Below, in pieces: positions 46,133 to 51,054 of a DNA stretch of 64,000 bases (the stretch's first letter is position 1; every line of letters begins with the position of its first letter). The position numbers and the translations under genes are program-made. A model generated the notes under the pieces. The model saw nothing but the letters and a program-made list of their open reading frames with translations, had not been told where the DNA came from and did not search any database. Source of the DNA: Brachyspira pilosicoli P43/6/78 (GTDB lineage: Bacteria > Spirochaetota > Brachyspiria > Brachyspirales > Brachyspiraceae); the NCBI RefSeq assembly GCF_000325665.1, contig NC_019908.1, positions 744,001 through 808,000 on the forward strand. The letters run 5' to 3'.

Positions 46133-47329
46133 TCACTCTTTTATAAACTCAAATATATCTATTAATTTTTTTCCTTCGTTTATAGTATTTCTATTTTTTA
46201 TAAATAATATTGCTGTTTTTATTAATGCTCTCTCCATAATAAGTTTTTTATCAGATAATTCTAAAGATGATATCTCAGCTACCTTAGAGTCTCCTACAGT
46301 TCTTCTTATCATTTCTGTGCCTGCATATCCTATAGAATCTGATAATATAGAACTCAAATAATATTCTTTAAAACTCTCATTTTTATAAAGACTAAATGTA
46401 ACTATATCATCATACTTTTTTCTTAAAGAAATATTTATTTTATCAAATGTATCTATTATTGTTTTCTTTATCCATTTAACAAAATCTTTATTATTAGAAA
46501 AATAAGTTTTATTAGCCAAAGAGAAAAATAAGTTTCCTATAACATTACCAATATCGTATCCTATAGGTCCATAAAAAGCAAACTCTGGATCTATTATCTT
46601 TACGCCTTTTTGATTTATAAATATAGAGCCTGTATGCAAATCCCCATGTATAAGTGCCTGAGAATAATTCATAAACCTATCTCTCAATTTGCATATTTCA
46701 AACTTTAAGCTTTCATCATTATACAAAAACTTCTCTACAAAATCTTCTTGTCCTTTAGATATTATATTTCTATTTTTATAATTATAATAAGGCTCTGTTA
46801 AAACTAAATCTTCTGTGATATCGCATAATTCTTTATTTATAAAAAGCTTCACATTATCTTTTTTTTCTGCCCTATCCATTACCAAATCAGTTGTAGGAAG
46901 CAAAACATTAGATAAAAAGTCAGCAATCTCATCAGAAAAATTATCAAACTGTTTTTCTTCTAATAACTCTTTACGCATGTTTTTATAATCAGATATATCT
47001 TCCATAGCCAAAGCATGCATATTCTCATCATAAGAATAAACTTTAGGTATATGATTAGGCGACAAAGAATACTCTATTTTTAATATTTCTGCCTCTATTT
47101 TACTTCTGTAAACATCTAAAGCTCTGCCAGAAGAACGTAAAAACTCATCAGCCTGTTTTATTATAATAGATTTATCTTTACTAAAAACCTTAAACACATA
47201 ATTTATATTACCGTCCCCTATTTCAATAGCCTCAATTTCTTCATCTTCATTAAAATATTTTAAGACTTTTTTACAATATTCCTTTACATCTTCCGTACTC
47301 ATCAAGAAATGCTTATCAAATTTACACAT
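46133..47329 (-). CDS. mtnK: S-methyl-5-thioribose kinase
   Basis: Phosphorylates methylthioribose in the methionine salvage pathway. 398 aa of the choline/aminoglycoside kinase fold: N-lobe loop IGDGNINYVFKVF, catalytic ALIHGDLHTGSIF, metal site IDPEFAFYGPIGYDIGN, which is the MtnK-specific form. AAGGAT precedes the ATG. No other salvage gene (mtnA etc.) is adjacent, but a methionine importer lies elsewhere in this window. Confidence 0.9.
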   Translation of the reverse strand: MCKFDKHFLMSTEDVKEYCKKVLKYFNEDEEIEAIEIGDGNINYVFKVFSKDKSIIIKQADEFLRSSGRALDVYRSKIEAEILKIEYSLSPNHIPKVYSYDENMHALAMEDISDYKNMRKELLEEKQFDNFSDEIADFLSNVLLPTTDLVMDRAEKKDNVKLFINKELCDITEDLVLTEPYYNYKNRNIISKGQEDFVEKFLYNDESLKFEICKLRDRFMNYSQALIHGDLHTGSIFINQKGVKIIDPEFAFYGPIGYDIGNVIGNLFFSLANKTYFSNNKDFVKWIKKTIIDTFDKINISLRKKYDDIVTFSLYKNESFKEYYLSSILSDSIGYAGTEMIRRTVGDSKVAEISSLELSDKKLIMERALIKTAILFIKNRNTINEGKKLIDIFEFIKE

Positions 47330-47483: not shown

Positions 47484-48008
47484 ATGGTATACTTTCTAAT
47501 AAAGCTATTACAGGGTTGTTTTGAAGTGGAAAAGTATATACTAGATAATGATTTAGATAATATAAGCAAACTCATAGAAAATATATGTCTAAGAATAGAT
47601 AAATACATAATAGATACTGACCTCTTTTCATCAGCATTATATGAAGTAATAATCAATGCTATAGAACATGGCAATCTCAATATATTGTATGAACAAAAAA
47701 AAGAGTGGCTTCAAAAAAATATATATAATAAAAAACTAAACGAATTACTAAAAAGCGAACTTGCTCAAAATACCAATATAGAATTAACTTTAGACATAAA
47801 TGAAAATGATAGAACTATCACAATCACAGTAAAAGATAGCGGAGAAGGCTTTAATATAAACAAAGCATTAAAAACAATTAAAGATGATGGTTTTGCAAGA
47901 GAAAGCGGAAGAGGAATTATAATAATAAAATCATATTTTGATGAAGTAAAACATAATAAAAAAGGCAATGTTATTACTCTCATTAAAAAATTCAATAAAA
48001 ATACATAA
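47484..48008 (+). CDS. RsbW-like ATP-binding (HATPase) regulatory protein
   Basis: 174 aa from the ATG at 47484; a GTG at 47526 behind AGGG gives 160 aa and may be the real start, because a TATAAT-like box almost touches the first ATG. The GHKL ATPase motifs are complete: N-box ALYEVIINAIEHGN, G1 VKDSGEGFN, G2 SGRGIIIIKSYFDEV. There is no phospho-acceptor His or membrane segment, so it resembles anti-sigma kinases (RsbW/SpoIIAB) and the stand-alone HATPase_c_2 proteins. Partners (STAS protein, sigma factor) are not adjacent. Followed by a Nudix-histidine kinase fusion. Confidence 0.82.
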   Translation: MVYFLIKLLQGCFEVEKYILDNDLDNISKLIENICLRIDKYIIDTDLFSSALYEVIINAIEHGNLNILYEQKKEWLQKNIYNKKLNELLKSELAQNTNIELTLDINENDRTITITVKDSGEGFNINKALKTIKDDGFARESGRGIIIIKSYFDEVKHNKKGNVITLIKKFNKNT

Positions 48009-48086
48009 AAAAGAGAACACTATTATGGCTAAATAAAAAAAAAGTCCAAAGATACTAAATTTTTTCATAAATCTCCTGAAATAAAA

Positions 48087-49571
48087 TTGGATACTGGTTT
48101 TGTTACATTAGAAAGATTTATAGCTATAAATGAATATGATGACGGAAGTTTTTCAAAAGAATATAATTGCGATATCATTAACAGAAAAGGCTCTGATGCA
48201 GTTATAATAGTTCCATATGCTTATATAGATAATCAAATGCATGTGCTTATGATTAAAAATTTCAGACCAGTAGTATACTATAAAGAAAAAGTATTAAATA
48301 ATAAAAGTGCTGGCGAAATAGATGAAAATATTATGTCATTTTTAGAGTTTCCAGCTGGTATGCTCGAAGAAGATGAACTTAACATGAAAGACAGTAATAT
48401 GGGTATAAGAAAATGTGCTCAAAGAGAATTGGAAGAAGAGACAGGATATAGTGTCAATATAAAGAATATTAAAGTTTTAGGACATCAATATTACAGCTCT
48501 TCTGGTATTATTACAGAGAGAATAAATATTGCCACATGCGATATAACAGGATTAAAACCTAAAAAAGTAAAAACTGACGGTTCTGTTATGGAAGAAAATA
48601 TTGATTCTTTTTTTGTGGAGTTTACTGAGGCTATAAAATGGTGCAAAGAAGGAATAATAAAAAATGCTGGTACAGAAATAGGCTTAAACAGACTTTATTT
48701 TTCAATACTATATGAACAGCAAAAAAAACATACTGATATATTACAAAAAAGATTAGTTTCTTTATTTAATGAAATAAACTCTTTGAAAAAAAGTGTTAAT
48801 TATTATAATAAGCTTATAAGAGAGTTTAAAGCTACTATCACTCATGAGCTTAGACACCCATTTACAGAGATAATGGGGTATATTAATTTATTAAAAAGAA
48901 AAACATTAGCTGAAGATAAAAAAGAAGAGGCTATTAATGTTATATCTAGAAGTATAAAAAAACTATATGATAATAATAATAATTTAATACAGATTGCCAT
49001 TAAAGATGATGAAAGCTATAGTTATACTTCTGAATTTAATGTTGAAGATGAATTAAACTCAATAATAGAAGGATATAAAATTTTATACCCAAAAGATATT
49101 AATACAGAAATAAATATAGAAGAAAATTGTAAGACTCTAATAGGATATAAAGAGAGATTTAGATTGATAATGGAAGGTATAGTCTCTAATGCCTTTAAAT
49201 TTACAAAGTCCGGCACAATATCTATAAACGTTAGAATGCTTGATACTATTGAAACTAAAGTTATAGATTTATCACCAGACTTATTTAATTATCATTCTAT
49301 GCAAAACATCATACCAAATGAAATAGAAATTACGGTAAAAGATACAGGCAAAGGAATAAAGCAAAGCAAATTAAAGAAAATCTTTATACCATTCTATCAA
49401 AGCGATTCAAGGTTTGAAAGAGAATATGGCGGAATAGGAATAGGTTTATCTGTAGTCAAAGATCTTCTTGATACTATGCAAGGTGCAATTACAATAGATA
49501 GCTCTGAAGGTGCAGGTACTATAGTAAAATTAAGAATACCTTTTGGAGTTGTAAACACTTCCAAAAATTAA
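48087..49571 (+). CDS. Nudix hydrolase-histidine kinase fusion
   Basis: Two domains in one soluble chain of at least 494 aa. Residues about 1-210 are a Nudix domain of the ADP-ribose pyrophosphatase type, with FPAGMLEEDE and the catalytic CAQRELEEETGY helix. Residues about 245-490 are a histidine kinase: H-box ITHELRHPFTEIMGY, N-box IMEGIVSNAFKFTKSG, G1 VKDTGKGI, F-box FIPFYQSD, G2 GGIGIGLSVVKDLLDTM. No receiver or membrane segment. The first possible standard start in frame is the TTG at 48087, with no ribosome site; the frame is open back to 48033. A well-placed ATG at 48025 is out of frame and stops after three codons. Confidence 0.85.
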   Translation: MDTGFVTLERFIAINEYDDGSFSKEYNCDIINRKGSDAVIIVPYAYIDNQMHVLMIKNFRPVVYYKEKVLNNKSAGEIDENIMSFLEFPAGMLEEDELNMKDSNMGIRKCAQRELEEETGYSVNIKNIKVLGHQYYSSSGIITERINIATCDITGLKPKKVKTDGSVMEENIDSFFVEFTEAIKWCKEGIIKNAGTEIGLNRLYFSILYEQQKKHTDILQKRLVSLFNEINSLKKSVNYYNKLIREFKATITHELRHPFTEIMGYINLLKRKTLAEDKKEEAINVISRSIKKLYDNNNNLIQIAIKDDESYSYTSEFNVEDELNSIIEGYKILYPKDINTEINIEENCKTLIGYKERFRLIMEGIVSNAFKFTKSGTISINVRMLDTIETKVIDLSPDLFNYHSMQNIIPNEIEITVKDTGKGIKQSKLKKIFIPFYQSDSRFEREYGGIGIGLSVVKDLLDTMQGAITIDSSEGAGTIVKLRIPFGVVNTSKN

Positions 49572-49573
49572 TT

Positions 49574-50044
49574 TTATTCCATATAAGCCATATAAGCAGA
49601 TAATACTGTTATGCTGTCTTCTTCAGTGCTTTGATTTTCTTCGGCATAATCAAAGTATGTAGATAAAAGTGCATAATCACTGTAGCCATCTTCGCTATAT
49701 ACATTCTCTTCTTGTTCTTGAGAAACAGATGTTGAAGCTACTATTGGAGCAGATGCTGTATTATTATTATTGTTAATAACTACACCTATTCCAACAAATA
49801 TCAATAACATAGCTGCTATAGAAGCAATATAAGGTACGAATTTAAATTTCTTTTTTGTGTTATTTACTTCTATGGGCATCTTCCCAGTTAAAATAGATGA
49901 CATAGCAAAAATTTCTTCTTTAAACTTTCTACATTCAGCACATTCATGCAAATGTTTTTCCATTTCTGCTATTTCTTCATCATTTAAATCATTATCTTTA
50001 TATCTGCTAATAAGCATTTCATAATACTCATGTGTGTTGTTCAT
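49574..50044 (-). CDS. Zinc-finger anti-sigma factor, membrane-anchored
   Basis: 156 aa. N-terminal ZAS domain with HLHECAECRKF (HxxxCxxC), which in this family binds the ECF sigma on the cytoplasmic side; one transmembrane helix at about 70-90 (VPYIASIAAMLLIFVGIGVVI); an Asn/Ser-rich extracytoplasmic tail of ~65 residues. Its start overlaps the sigma gene stop by four bases, the usual arrangement for a sigma/anti-sigma pair. Release probably follows a signal at the envelope. Confidence 0.88.
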   Translation of the reverse strand: MNNTHEYYEMLISRYKDNDLNDEEIAEMEKHLHECAECRKFKEEIFAMSSILTGKMPIEVNNTKKKFKFVPYIASIAAMLLIFVGIGVVINNNNNTASAPIVASTSVSQEQEENVYSEDGYSDYALLSTYFDYAEENQSTEEDSITVLSAYMAYME

Positions 50045-50595
50045 AAAGTTACCCCCATTTTTTTTATTATTTCTAATAATTTCTTTCTTGCCCTAAATAT
50101 CCTTGTTCTTACGGTATTAACAGGCAAGTCCAATTTCTCAGATATCTCAGTATAAGAATAATTCTCATATTCTGCCATCATAAGAGGTATTCTAAAATCA
50201 TCTTCCAATTTAGATAAACTCTCTGCTATAATGATTTTATTTATACTGTCATTATCATGAGCTTCCTGCATTTGGGCATTTCTGTATTCTTTAAGTCTGT
50301 ATCTTTTTTCTCTCTCTTTTTTTCTTATATGGTCAACTGCCCTATTGAAAGAAACCCTATAAAGCCAAGTATAAATCTTAGACCTTCCTTCAAAGCTCTC
50401 CCTCTTTATATAAAAACTTACAAAAACATCTTGTACAATCTCTTCTGCCTCATCATAATTAGAAATAAGAGAATATACAAGATTAATTAAAGGTTTTTTG
50501 TAAGCCTCCATAAGCTCTTTGAAAGCCTCTTCATCTCCTTTTTTAAAGGCTTCTAAAAAATTATTTTCATCAAACGCCATCTCTACACCACTCAT
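50041..50595 (-). CDS. ECF RNA polymerase sigma factor (SigE/RpoE type)
   Basis: 184 aa with only regions 2 and 4. Region 2: YDEAEEIVQDVFVSFY and the -10 recognition helix SKIYTWLYRVSFNRAVDHIRKK. Region 4: FRIPLMMAEYENYSYTEISEKLDLPVNTVRTRIFRARKKL. Nine bases separate it from the Spy-like gene upstream and it overlaps the anti-sigma gene. The operon promoter has the sigma-E consensus, so it very probably drives its own synthesis. Confidence 0.93.
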   Translation of the reverse strand: MSGVEMAFDENNFLEAFKKGDEEAFKELMEAYKKPLINLVYSLISNYDEAEEIVQDVFVSFYIKRESFEGRSKIYTWLYRVSFNRAVDHIRKKEREKRYRLKEYRNAQMQEAHDNDSINKIIIAESLSKLEDDFRIPLMMAEYENYSYTEISEKLDLPVNTVRTRIFRARKKLLEIIKKMGVTL

Positions 50596-50604
50596 AAAAA
50601 ATAA

Positions 50605-51054
50605 TTACCTCATTTTGCAATTGTGAAGCTGAGATCTTTGCTGAGGTGTTAATACATTTATTATATCTAAATCTCGAACCATTTTCAAATAATCTCTCTC
50701 TGCTTCATAATCTTTTTTAGACTTAATAAGATTCTTTAGCATATTTCTGTTTGGATTATCTTTAATAAGTTCTTCTCTTATACTATAATCTATCTTTTCT
50801 ATTTCTAGTCTAATGCTTTCTTCTTCTTGTACAAATTTAATAGCTATATCATAAACTTTCTTTGTTTGCTCTTCTGTTAATACTATGCCAGCCATTTGTA
50901 AAAAACGTAAAGCATCTGGACCCAATTTATCAGTTCCTCTATGCATTCCCCTGCCGCCGCCTCTCATTCCTCTGCCATGTCCTGGTCCATAAGGCTGAGC
51001 AATAAGAAGTGATGAAAATAATAATACAAATAATAATATAAGCCTTTTTTTCAT
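50605..51054 (-). CDS. Periplasmic Spy/CpxP-like LTxxQ protein
   Basis: 149 aa with signal peptide (RLILLFVLLFSSLLIAQ). A Gly/Arg/His-rich stretch (GHGRGMRGGGRGMHRG, about 25-42) could bind metal. The rest is helical with an LTEEQ near the start and LTPQQR near the end, the LTxxQ signature of CpxP/Spy/ZraP proteins, which act as periplasmic chaperones or stress sensors. First gene of an operon with the ECF sigma and anti-sigma genes, so it is likely a target and perhaps a modulator of the same stress response. Confidence 0.85.
   Translation of the reverse strand: MKKRLILLFVLLFSSLLIAQPYGPGHGRGMRGGGRGMHRGTDKLGPDALRFLQMAGIVLTEEQTKKVYDIAIKFVQEEESIRLEIEKIDYSIREELIKDNPNRNMLKNLIKSKKDYEAERDYLKMVRDLDIINVLTPQQRSQLHNCKMR

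Follow-up and report, generated by a model that had tools for sequence, protein, structure and literature searches.

The Brachyspirales possess a genuine Nudix-histidine kinase fusion that is conserved throughout the order, is under strong constraint and, as a class, represents a novel type of sensor kinase. It was identified in a 64-kb stretch of DNA (hereafter the window, to which coordinates without a prefix refer) of Brachyspira pilosicoli P43/6/78, whose genome is a single contig of 2,555,556 bases. On balance, and judging from its sequence, we favor the interpretation that this is a soluble dimeric kinase that would sense an ADP-ribose-like nucleotide through a probably active Nudix domain and signal to an unlinked receiver.

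Conservation of the Nudix-histidine kinase fusion

We searched for the fusion in 31 Brachyspirales genomes from five genera, which are all of the class that was sampled and of which 26 belong to Brachyspira, and in 361 other Spirochaetota. The Nudix-histidine kinase was recovered as one open reading frame (ORF) in 31/31 Brachyspirales genomes, with identities of 41-99%, whereas the Nudix half was found in 0/361 of the other sampled Spirochaetota at E<=1e-12. The recurrence of the same architecture in all genomes of the order places the fusion far beyond chance, and the dN/dS values obtained for both the Nudix half and the kinase half (0.01-0.06) establish that both are under strong purifying selection. 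A sequence-only reading of this locus had named separate genes in relatives as the sign of an assembly error; the single gene present in every one of the 31 genomes shows that the fusion is not such an error.

Plasmids contained no convincing full-length relative, the matches being weak and to kinase-type proteins; the part comprising the Nudix domain and linker was not found in phages; and a scan of genome contigs, which reaches close relatives only, returned no full-length relative beyond Brachyspira and its close relatives. No Nudix-histidine kinase fusion was found in the open-access literature either, subscription papers and domain-architecture databases lying outside that search. The collections searched likewise gave no described Nudix histidine kinase; the earlier reading, too, had matched the module to no described system.

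Domain architecture

The frame spanning positions 48033-49571 on the forward strand runs for 512 codons without a stop and presents Pfam matches to NUDIX (E 5e-6), HisKA (E 5e-8) and HATPase_c (E 2e-20), all above gathering scores. Pfam, NCBIfam and the motifs agree that, as had been read from the sequence, an intact Nudix box and a histidine kinase with H, N, G1, F and G2 boxes lie on one ORF. The gene, its parts and the gene directly upstream are listed below, with residue numbers of the Nudix-kinase counted from TTG 48087.

48087..49571 (+): Nudix-histidine kinase, 494 aa counted from the TTG (ORF search, Pfam, NCBIfam), recovered as one ORF from 31/31 Brachyspirales genomes
48087..48701 (+): Nudix domain of the AdpP / ADP-ribose pyrophosphatase - NDP-sugar hydrolase family, including the N-terminal strands (TIGR00052, PDB profile matches, AF2 domain model)
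48357..48449 (+): Nudix box G..E..RELEEETGY, with an 8-residue insertion ahead of REL
48576..48596 (+): DGSVMEE loop, at the position of loop L9, on which ADPRases bear their catalytic base (alignment)
48699..48836 (+): predicted uninterrupted helix / coiled coil that links the last Nudix helix to the DHp helix (AF2 model, spacing, heptads)
48813..48995 (+): HisKA/DHp domain (Pfam), with the codon of the phospho-acceptor His253 at 48843-48845 (HELRHP)
49149..49544 (+): HATPase_c domain, with N (N368), G1 (DTGKGI), F (IFIPFYQ) and G2 (GGIGIGL) boxes
49272..49295 (+): SPDLFNYH insertion between the N and G1 boxes (alignment)
47484..48008 (+): RsbW/SpoIIAB-like GHKL ATPase, directly upstream of the Nudix-kinase (Pfam HATPase_c_2)

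Examination of the whole protein revealed no transmembrane segment and no receiver domain, in line with the earlier claim that it lacks both. The second GHKL ATPase that had been proposed upstream is also present, the product of 47484-48008 matching HATPase_c_2 with an E value of 1e-13.

The Nudix half resembles ADP-ribose pyrophosphatases

The NCBIfam model TIGR00052 (YffH/AdpP Nudix) matched residues 19-220 of the open frame over nearly its whole length (E 1e-18), with scores that remain below its curated cut-off of 79.55 bits (best 69 bits, 0/31 Brachyspirales genomes above). Profile matches in the PDB (1viu, NudK and 1g0s) were to structures of ADP-ribose pyrophosphatases and a GDP-mannose hydrolase. 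An AF2 model of the Nudix domain, built from the close relative L081, in which the N-terminus is complete (pLDDT 79), matched 1viq in Foldseek (4e-13) and 5c7t with a VIA Z of 17.5. The structures matched were the Bdellovibrio NDP-sugar hydrolase, the Klebsiella and E. coli ADP-ribose pyrophosphatases and NudK, N-terminal strands included, with VIA Z of 17-17.5 and 176-198 residues aligned at rmsd 5.2-6.5 along nearly the entire length. Sequence and predicted fold support the assignment of the domain to the ADP-ribose pyrophosphatase/NDP-sugar hydrolase family, the members of which form domain-swapped homodimers (PMC4629899). With respect to the substrate markers of this family, the D-x-K of NDP-sugar hydrolases and the ADPRase Pro (PMC4629899), the D-x-K expected at the N-terminus of helix 3 is absent (KNAGTE is found where RDGKT is expected), and the ADPRase-diagnostic Pro, located about 15 residues past the Nudix Gly, is Ser in Brachyspira (SSSG) and Pro in the other genera (SSPG/TAPG).

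The Nudix box reads FPAGMLEEDE..RELEEETGY and holds every residue of the Nudix signature G x5 E x7 RE U xEE x G U, with a spacing before RE of x15, not x7. In an alignment of ten diverse members, R113, E114, E117, E118 and G120 of the box are invariant, as are D164, G165, S166, M168, E169 and E170 of the DGSVMEE loop; the motif RE[LI]xEExG[YF] is present in the Nudix-kinases of 31/31 Brachyspirales, and the first Glu of the signature is substituted in some distant members. The alignment register places E. coli ADPRase E162, which we take to be the catalytic base, on M168, and E164 on E170. E162 is thus aligned with an invariant Met that has two invariant Glu directly after it, and hydrolysis by the Nudix-kinase is consequently predicted as likely but not certain.

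The same register bears on the foremost alternative to an active sensor, which we regard as a credible but distinctly less probable reading: that the Nudix domain binds a nucleotide without hydrolyzing it, as in NrtR and AraR, and that the kinase is a pure receptor. The invariant Met at the E162 position and the observation that non-catalytic Nudix domains typically occur within multidomain proteins (PMC5389931) speak for it, but the metal-binding RE-x2-EE-x-G, which is impaired in NrtR/AraR, is invariant here over identities of 41-99%, and either of the invariant E169 and E170 could act as the base.

A fixed-length linker joins the Nudix domain to a complete kinase

In 30/31 members, 57 residues separate the Nudix TE motif from the phospho-acceptor His, against 58 in the other one, and the hydrophobic residues of the linker follow a heptad pattern (p 0.0015-0.05 against shuffled sequences, six members). 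A full-length AF2 model of middling quality (pLDDT 69, pTM 0.38), for which the kinase half alone is represented among the best 50 Foldseek matches, predicts with moderate confidence one helix running from the Nudix domain to DHp (residues 194-269). This layout suggests a dimeric input mounted on a dimeric coiled coil of fixed phase, the usual arrangement in sensor kinases. The boxes of the kinase are conserved among the members, acceptor His included, and the protein combines this His with the N, G1, F and G2 boxes that define a HisKA/HATPase_c sensor kinase. Within the insert between the N and G1 boxes, PDLFNYH is found in 31/31 members.

Among the relatives of the kinase half seen outside the Brachyspirales, the nearest is a histidine kinase from another spirochaete family (genome G070, L120:523-2355), which is 34% identical to it and has a related N-G1 insert, through which the two align with few gaps. 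This membrane kinase has a long hydrophobic N-terminal part in place of a Nudix domain. The presence of a different, hydrophobic N-terminus in the nearest outside relative indicates that the Nudix domain occupies the input position, and fits a sensor exchange in the lineage ancestral to the Brachyspirales. The L120 kinase gene is flanked by plsC-like and tyrS genes.

These features also weigh on the direction of signaling. The Nudix-kinase is the sole AdpP-type Nudix detected in 30/31 Brachyspirales genomes, with one weak extra match in G029, and the outgroup spirochaete genomes G052 and G062 encode a free-standing AdpP-type Nudix above the TIGR00052 curated cut-off. Since an AdpP-type enzyme may serve housekeeping, this pattern could be explained by a reverse flow in which the kinase half controls the Nudix domain, making the protein an ADP-ribose-type pyrophosphatase that is regulated by phosphorylation and is the order's sole enzyme of this type. 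We consider this improbable: domain order and fixed coiled coil are of the sensor-kinase input type, conservation extends to every kinase box and to the acceptor His, and the related kinase half found elsewhere carries another N-terminal part.

Neighboring genes and candidate partners

The RsbW-like gene lies directly upstream of the Nudix-kinase in 28/31 genomes, corresponding to 25/26 Brachyspira, 3/3 other Brachyspiraceae and 0/2 members of a second family, and the gap between both genes is only 4-40 bases in several genomes. It is not upstream in Brachyspira genome G019 or in either second-family genome, and the Nudix-kinase can therefore do without it. The encoded protein conserves the residues of the ATP site and belongs to the HATPase_c_2 family, but scores 25 bits against curated RsbW/SpoIIAB cut-offs of 135-155, and can hence be termed only RsbW-like. 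In genome G007, a second RsbW-like gene is found just 3' of the Nudix-kinase (L083:10522-10953, reverse strand) and resembles the paralog at L114:2109-2492. In the second family, related lipoprotein-like genes (L088:1111-1515 and L089:10041-10517), for which no Pfam match was obtained, overlap the start of the Nudix-kinase in the place of the RsbW-like gene.

The absence of the RsbW-like gene upstream in 3/31 genomes is compatible with a fusion of two unrelated functions that serves co-expression only, with the RsbW-like gene as a bystander. Against this account, to which we assign a very low probability, the 57-residue linker kept down to about 41% identity and its heptads point to mechanical coupling.

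The following genes flank the two ATPase genes in the window.

49574-51054 (-): anti-sigma (zf-HC2), ECF sigma factor and Spy/CpxP-like (Metal_resist) genes, downstream of and convergent with the Nudix-kinase
46133-47329 (-): gene for S-methyl-5-thioribose kinase, matching TIGR01767 at E 9e-112 and divergent from the RsbW-like gene

The ECF sigma/anti-sigma pair was discarded as a fixed partner, the ECF gene adjoining the Nudix-kinase in 9/31 genomes only, and an S-methyl-5-thioribose kinase gene beside the RsbW-like gene was not seen in the other loci read.

None of the genes adjacent to the Nudix-kinase encodes a receiver. Receiver domains that exceed the cut-off number 14 in the P43/6/78 genome (15 matches), and three of the receivers are orphan single-domain proteins. 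The genome also encodes three SpoIIE phosphatases, one of them fused to a receiver, five STAS proteins and two proteins with a HATPase_c_2 match above cut-off. The orphan receiver-SpoIIE phosphatase (L110:774-1937, reverse strand; G000:C1 about 1358273-1359436) adjoins a rodA/ftsW-like gene. As the only REC-SpoIIE protein found in the genome, it is a plausible candidate bridge from the histidine kinase to partner switching.

Another receiver fusion, REC-LpxC, joins a receiver to a lipid A deacetylase (G000:C1:2505560-2506837, reverse strand; L102:1061-2338, L116; Pfam E 1e-32 and 1e-69, respectively). It is full-length in 30/31 Brachyspirales and ends at a contig end in the remaining genome. 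REC-LpxC was rejected as an obligate partner, because in addition to 31/31 Brachyspirales it occurs in three further sampled spirochaetes, G040, G052 and G062, in which the search recovered no Nudix-kinase, so that its co-occurrence lends the pairing no support. The matches listed for the rest of the phylum cover LpxC or a receiver alone.

An apparently disturbed 5' end in strain P43/6/78

The gene had been read as starting at 48033; the codon there is ATA, directly behind a stop, and not a start codon. The first usual in-frame start codon is TTG 48087. ATG 48025, which corresponds to the start used in relatives, encounters a stop three codons on and is out of register with the Nudix-kinase frame (window 48025-48087), so that only TTG 48087 or a non-standard codon could open this frame, and roughly the first 18 residues of relatives fall upstream of the TTG. 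The close relatives examined have intact 5' ends, and the disturbance in P43/6/78 may be a true property of the strain or stem from a sequencing error at a run of A. A test for RNA structure in this 5' region gave no signal above shuffles. Although this disturbed end might suggest that two genes were joined wrongly in assembly or annotation, the recurrence of the single ORF in 31 independent genomes from five genera makes such an artifact almost inconceivable.

Proposed mechanism and significance

In the active-sensor interpretation that we favor, the Nudix-kinase would be a cytoplasmic, homodimeric sensor histidine kinase, the Nudix domain of which would bind ADP-ribose or a similar nucleotide, or another nucleoside-diphosphate-linked metabolite, at a Mg-dependent site. 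The last Nudix helix would continue into a fixed-length coiled coil that forms the first DHp helix, and ligand occupancy would thereby switch autokinase and phosphatase activity at His253. If the site is still hydrolytic, the sensor would destroy its own signal and reset, so that one Brachyspirales protein may both read and destroy a nucleotide signal. The phosphoryl group would then pass to an unlinked orphan receiver protein, and the co-encoded RsbW-like kinase would probably act in a partner-switching branch. A chain from the kinase through REC-SpoIIE and STAS to the RsbW-like protein would be the simplest one joining both co-encoded ATPases. The most specific form of this proposal, a self-terminating sensor of ADP-ribose/NAD-turnover state that hydrolyzes its own ligand and feeds a partner-switching (RsbW-like) circuit nearly universal in the Brachyspiraceae, is put forward tentatively and may well not hold as a whole.

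No description of histidine kinases with an enzyme-type, signature-intact Nudix input was found in the open-access literature searched. If the Nudix domain gates the kinase, the protein would define a two-component system that responds to an ADP-ribose-like signal inside the cell. This would also explain why, throughout this order of gut spirochaetes, the only AdpP-type Nudix has remained linked to a kinase. Being soluble and about 500 residues long, the Nudix-kinase is directly amenable to in vitro work.

Comparison with known systems

In the dimeric transcription regulators NrtR and AraR, a helix connects the output domain with an N-terminal Nudix-fold ligand sensor, the Nudix box of which is impaired (PMC6800001, PMC4666351). 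The analogy with NrtR that had been drawn for this locus holds for the layout, since the Nudix-kinase has an N-terminal Nudix domain and is predicted to share the dimeric arrangement and the helix to the output, but it fails for the box. NrtR and AraR combine an impaired box with a C-terminal wHTH output, neither of which the Nudix-kinase has; it presents instead an intact box, a kinase output and an AdpP-type domain with N-terminal swap strands. With the NudF/AdpP ADP-ribose pyrophosphatases and the NudK/Bd3179 NDP-sugar hydrolases it shares the Nudix family, the predicted fold, the N-terminal strands and RE-x2-EE-x-G, and it departs from them in the fusion to a kinase, the insertion in the Nudix box and the apparent Met at the base position. 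It further differs from NDP-sugar hydrolases in the missing D-x-K, and from TIGR00052 in its score under the cut-off.

Sensor kinases of the PhoR/WalK/PnpS type share HisKA and HATPase_c with all boxes, whereas the Nudix-kinase lacks a membrane part, has a Nudix input and carries the conserved SPDLFNYH insert between N and G1. The neighboring RsbW-like protein, in turn, has the HATPase_c_2 family and the ATP-site residues in common with the RsbW/SpoIIAB anti-sigma kinases, but falls far below their curated cut-offs, which for RsbW are 145-155, and presents an insertion after the N box.
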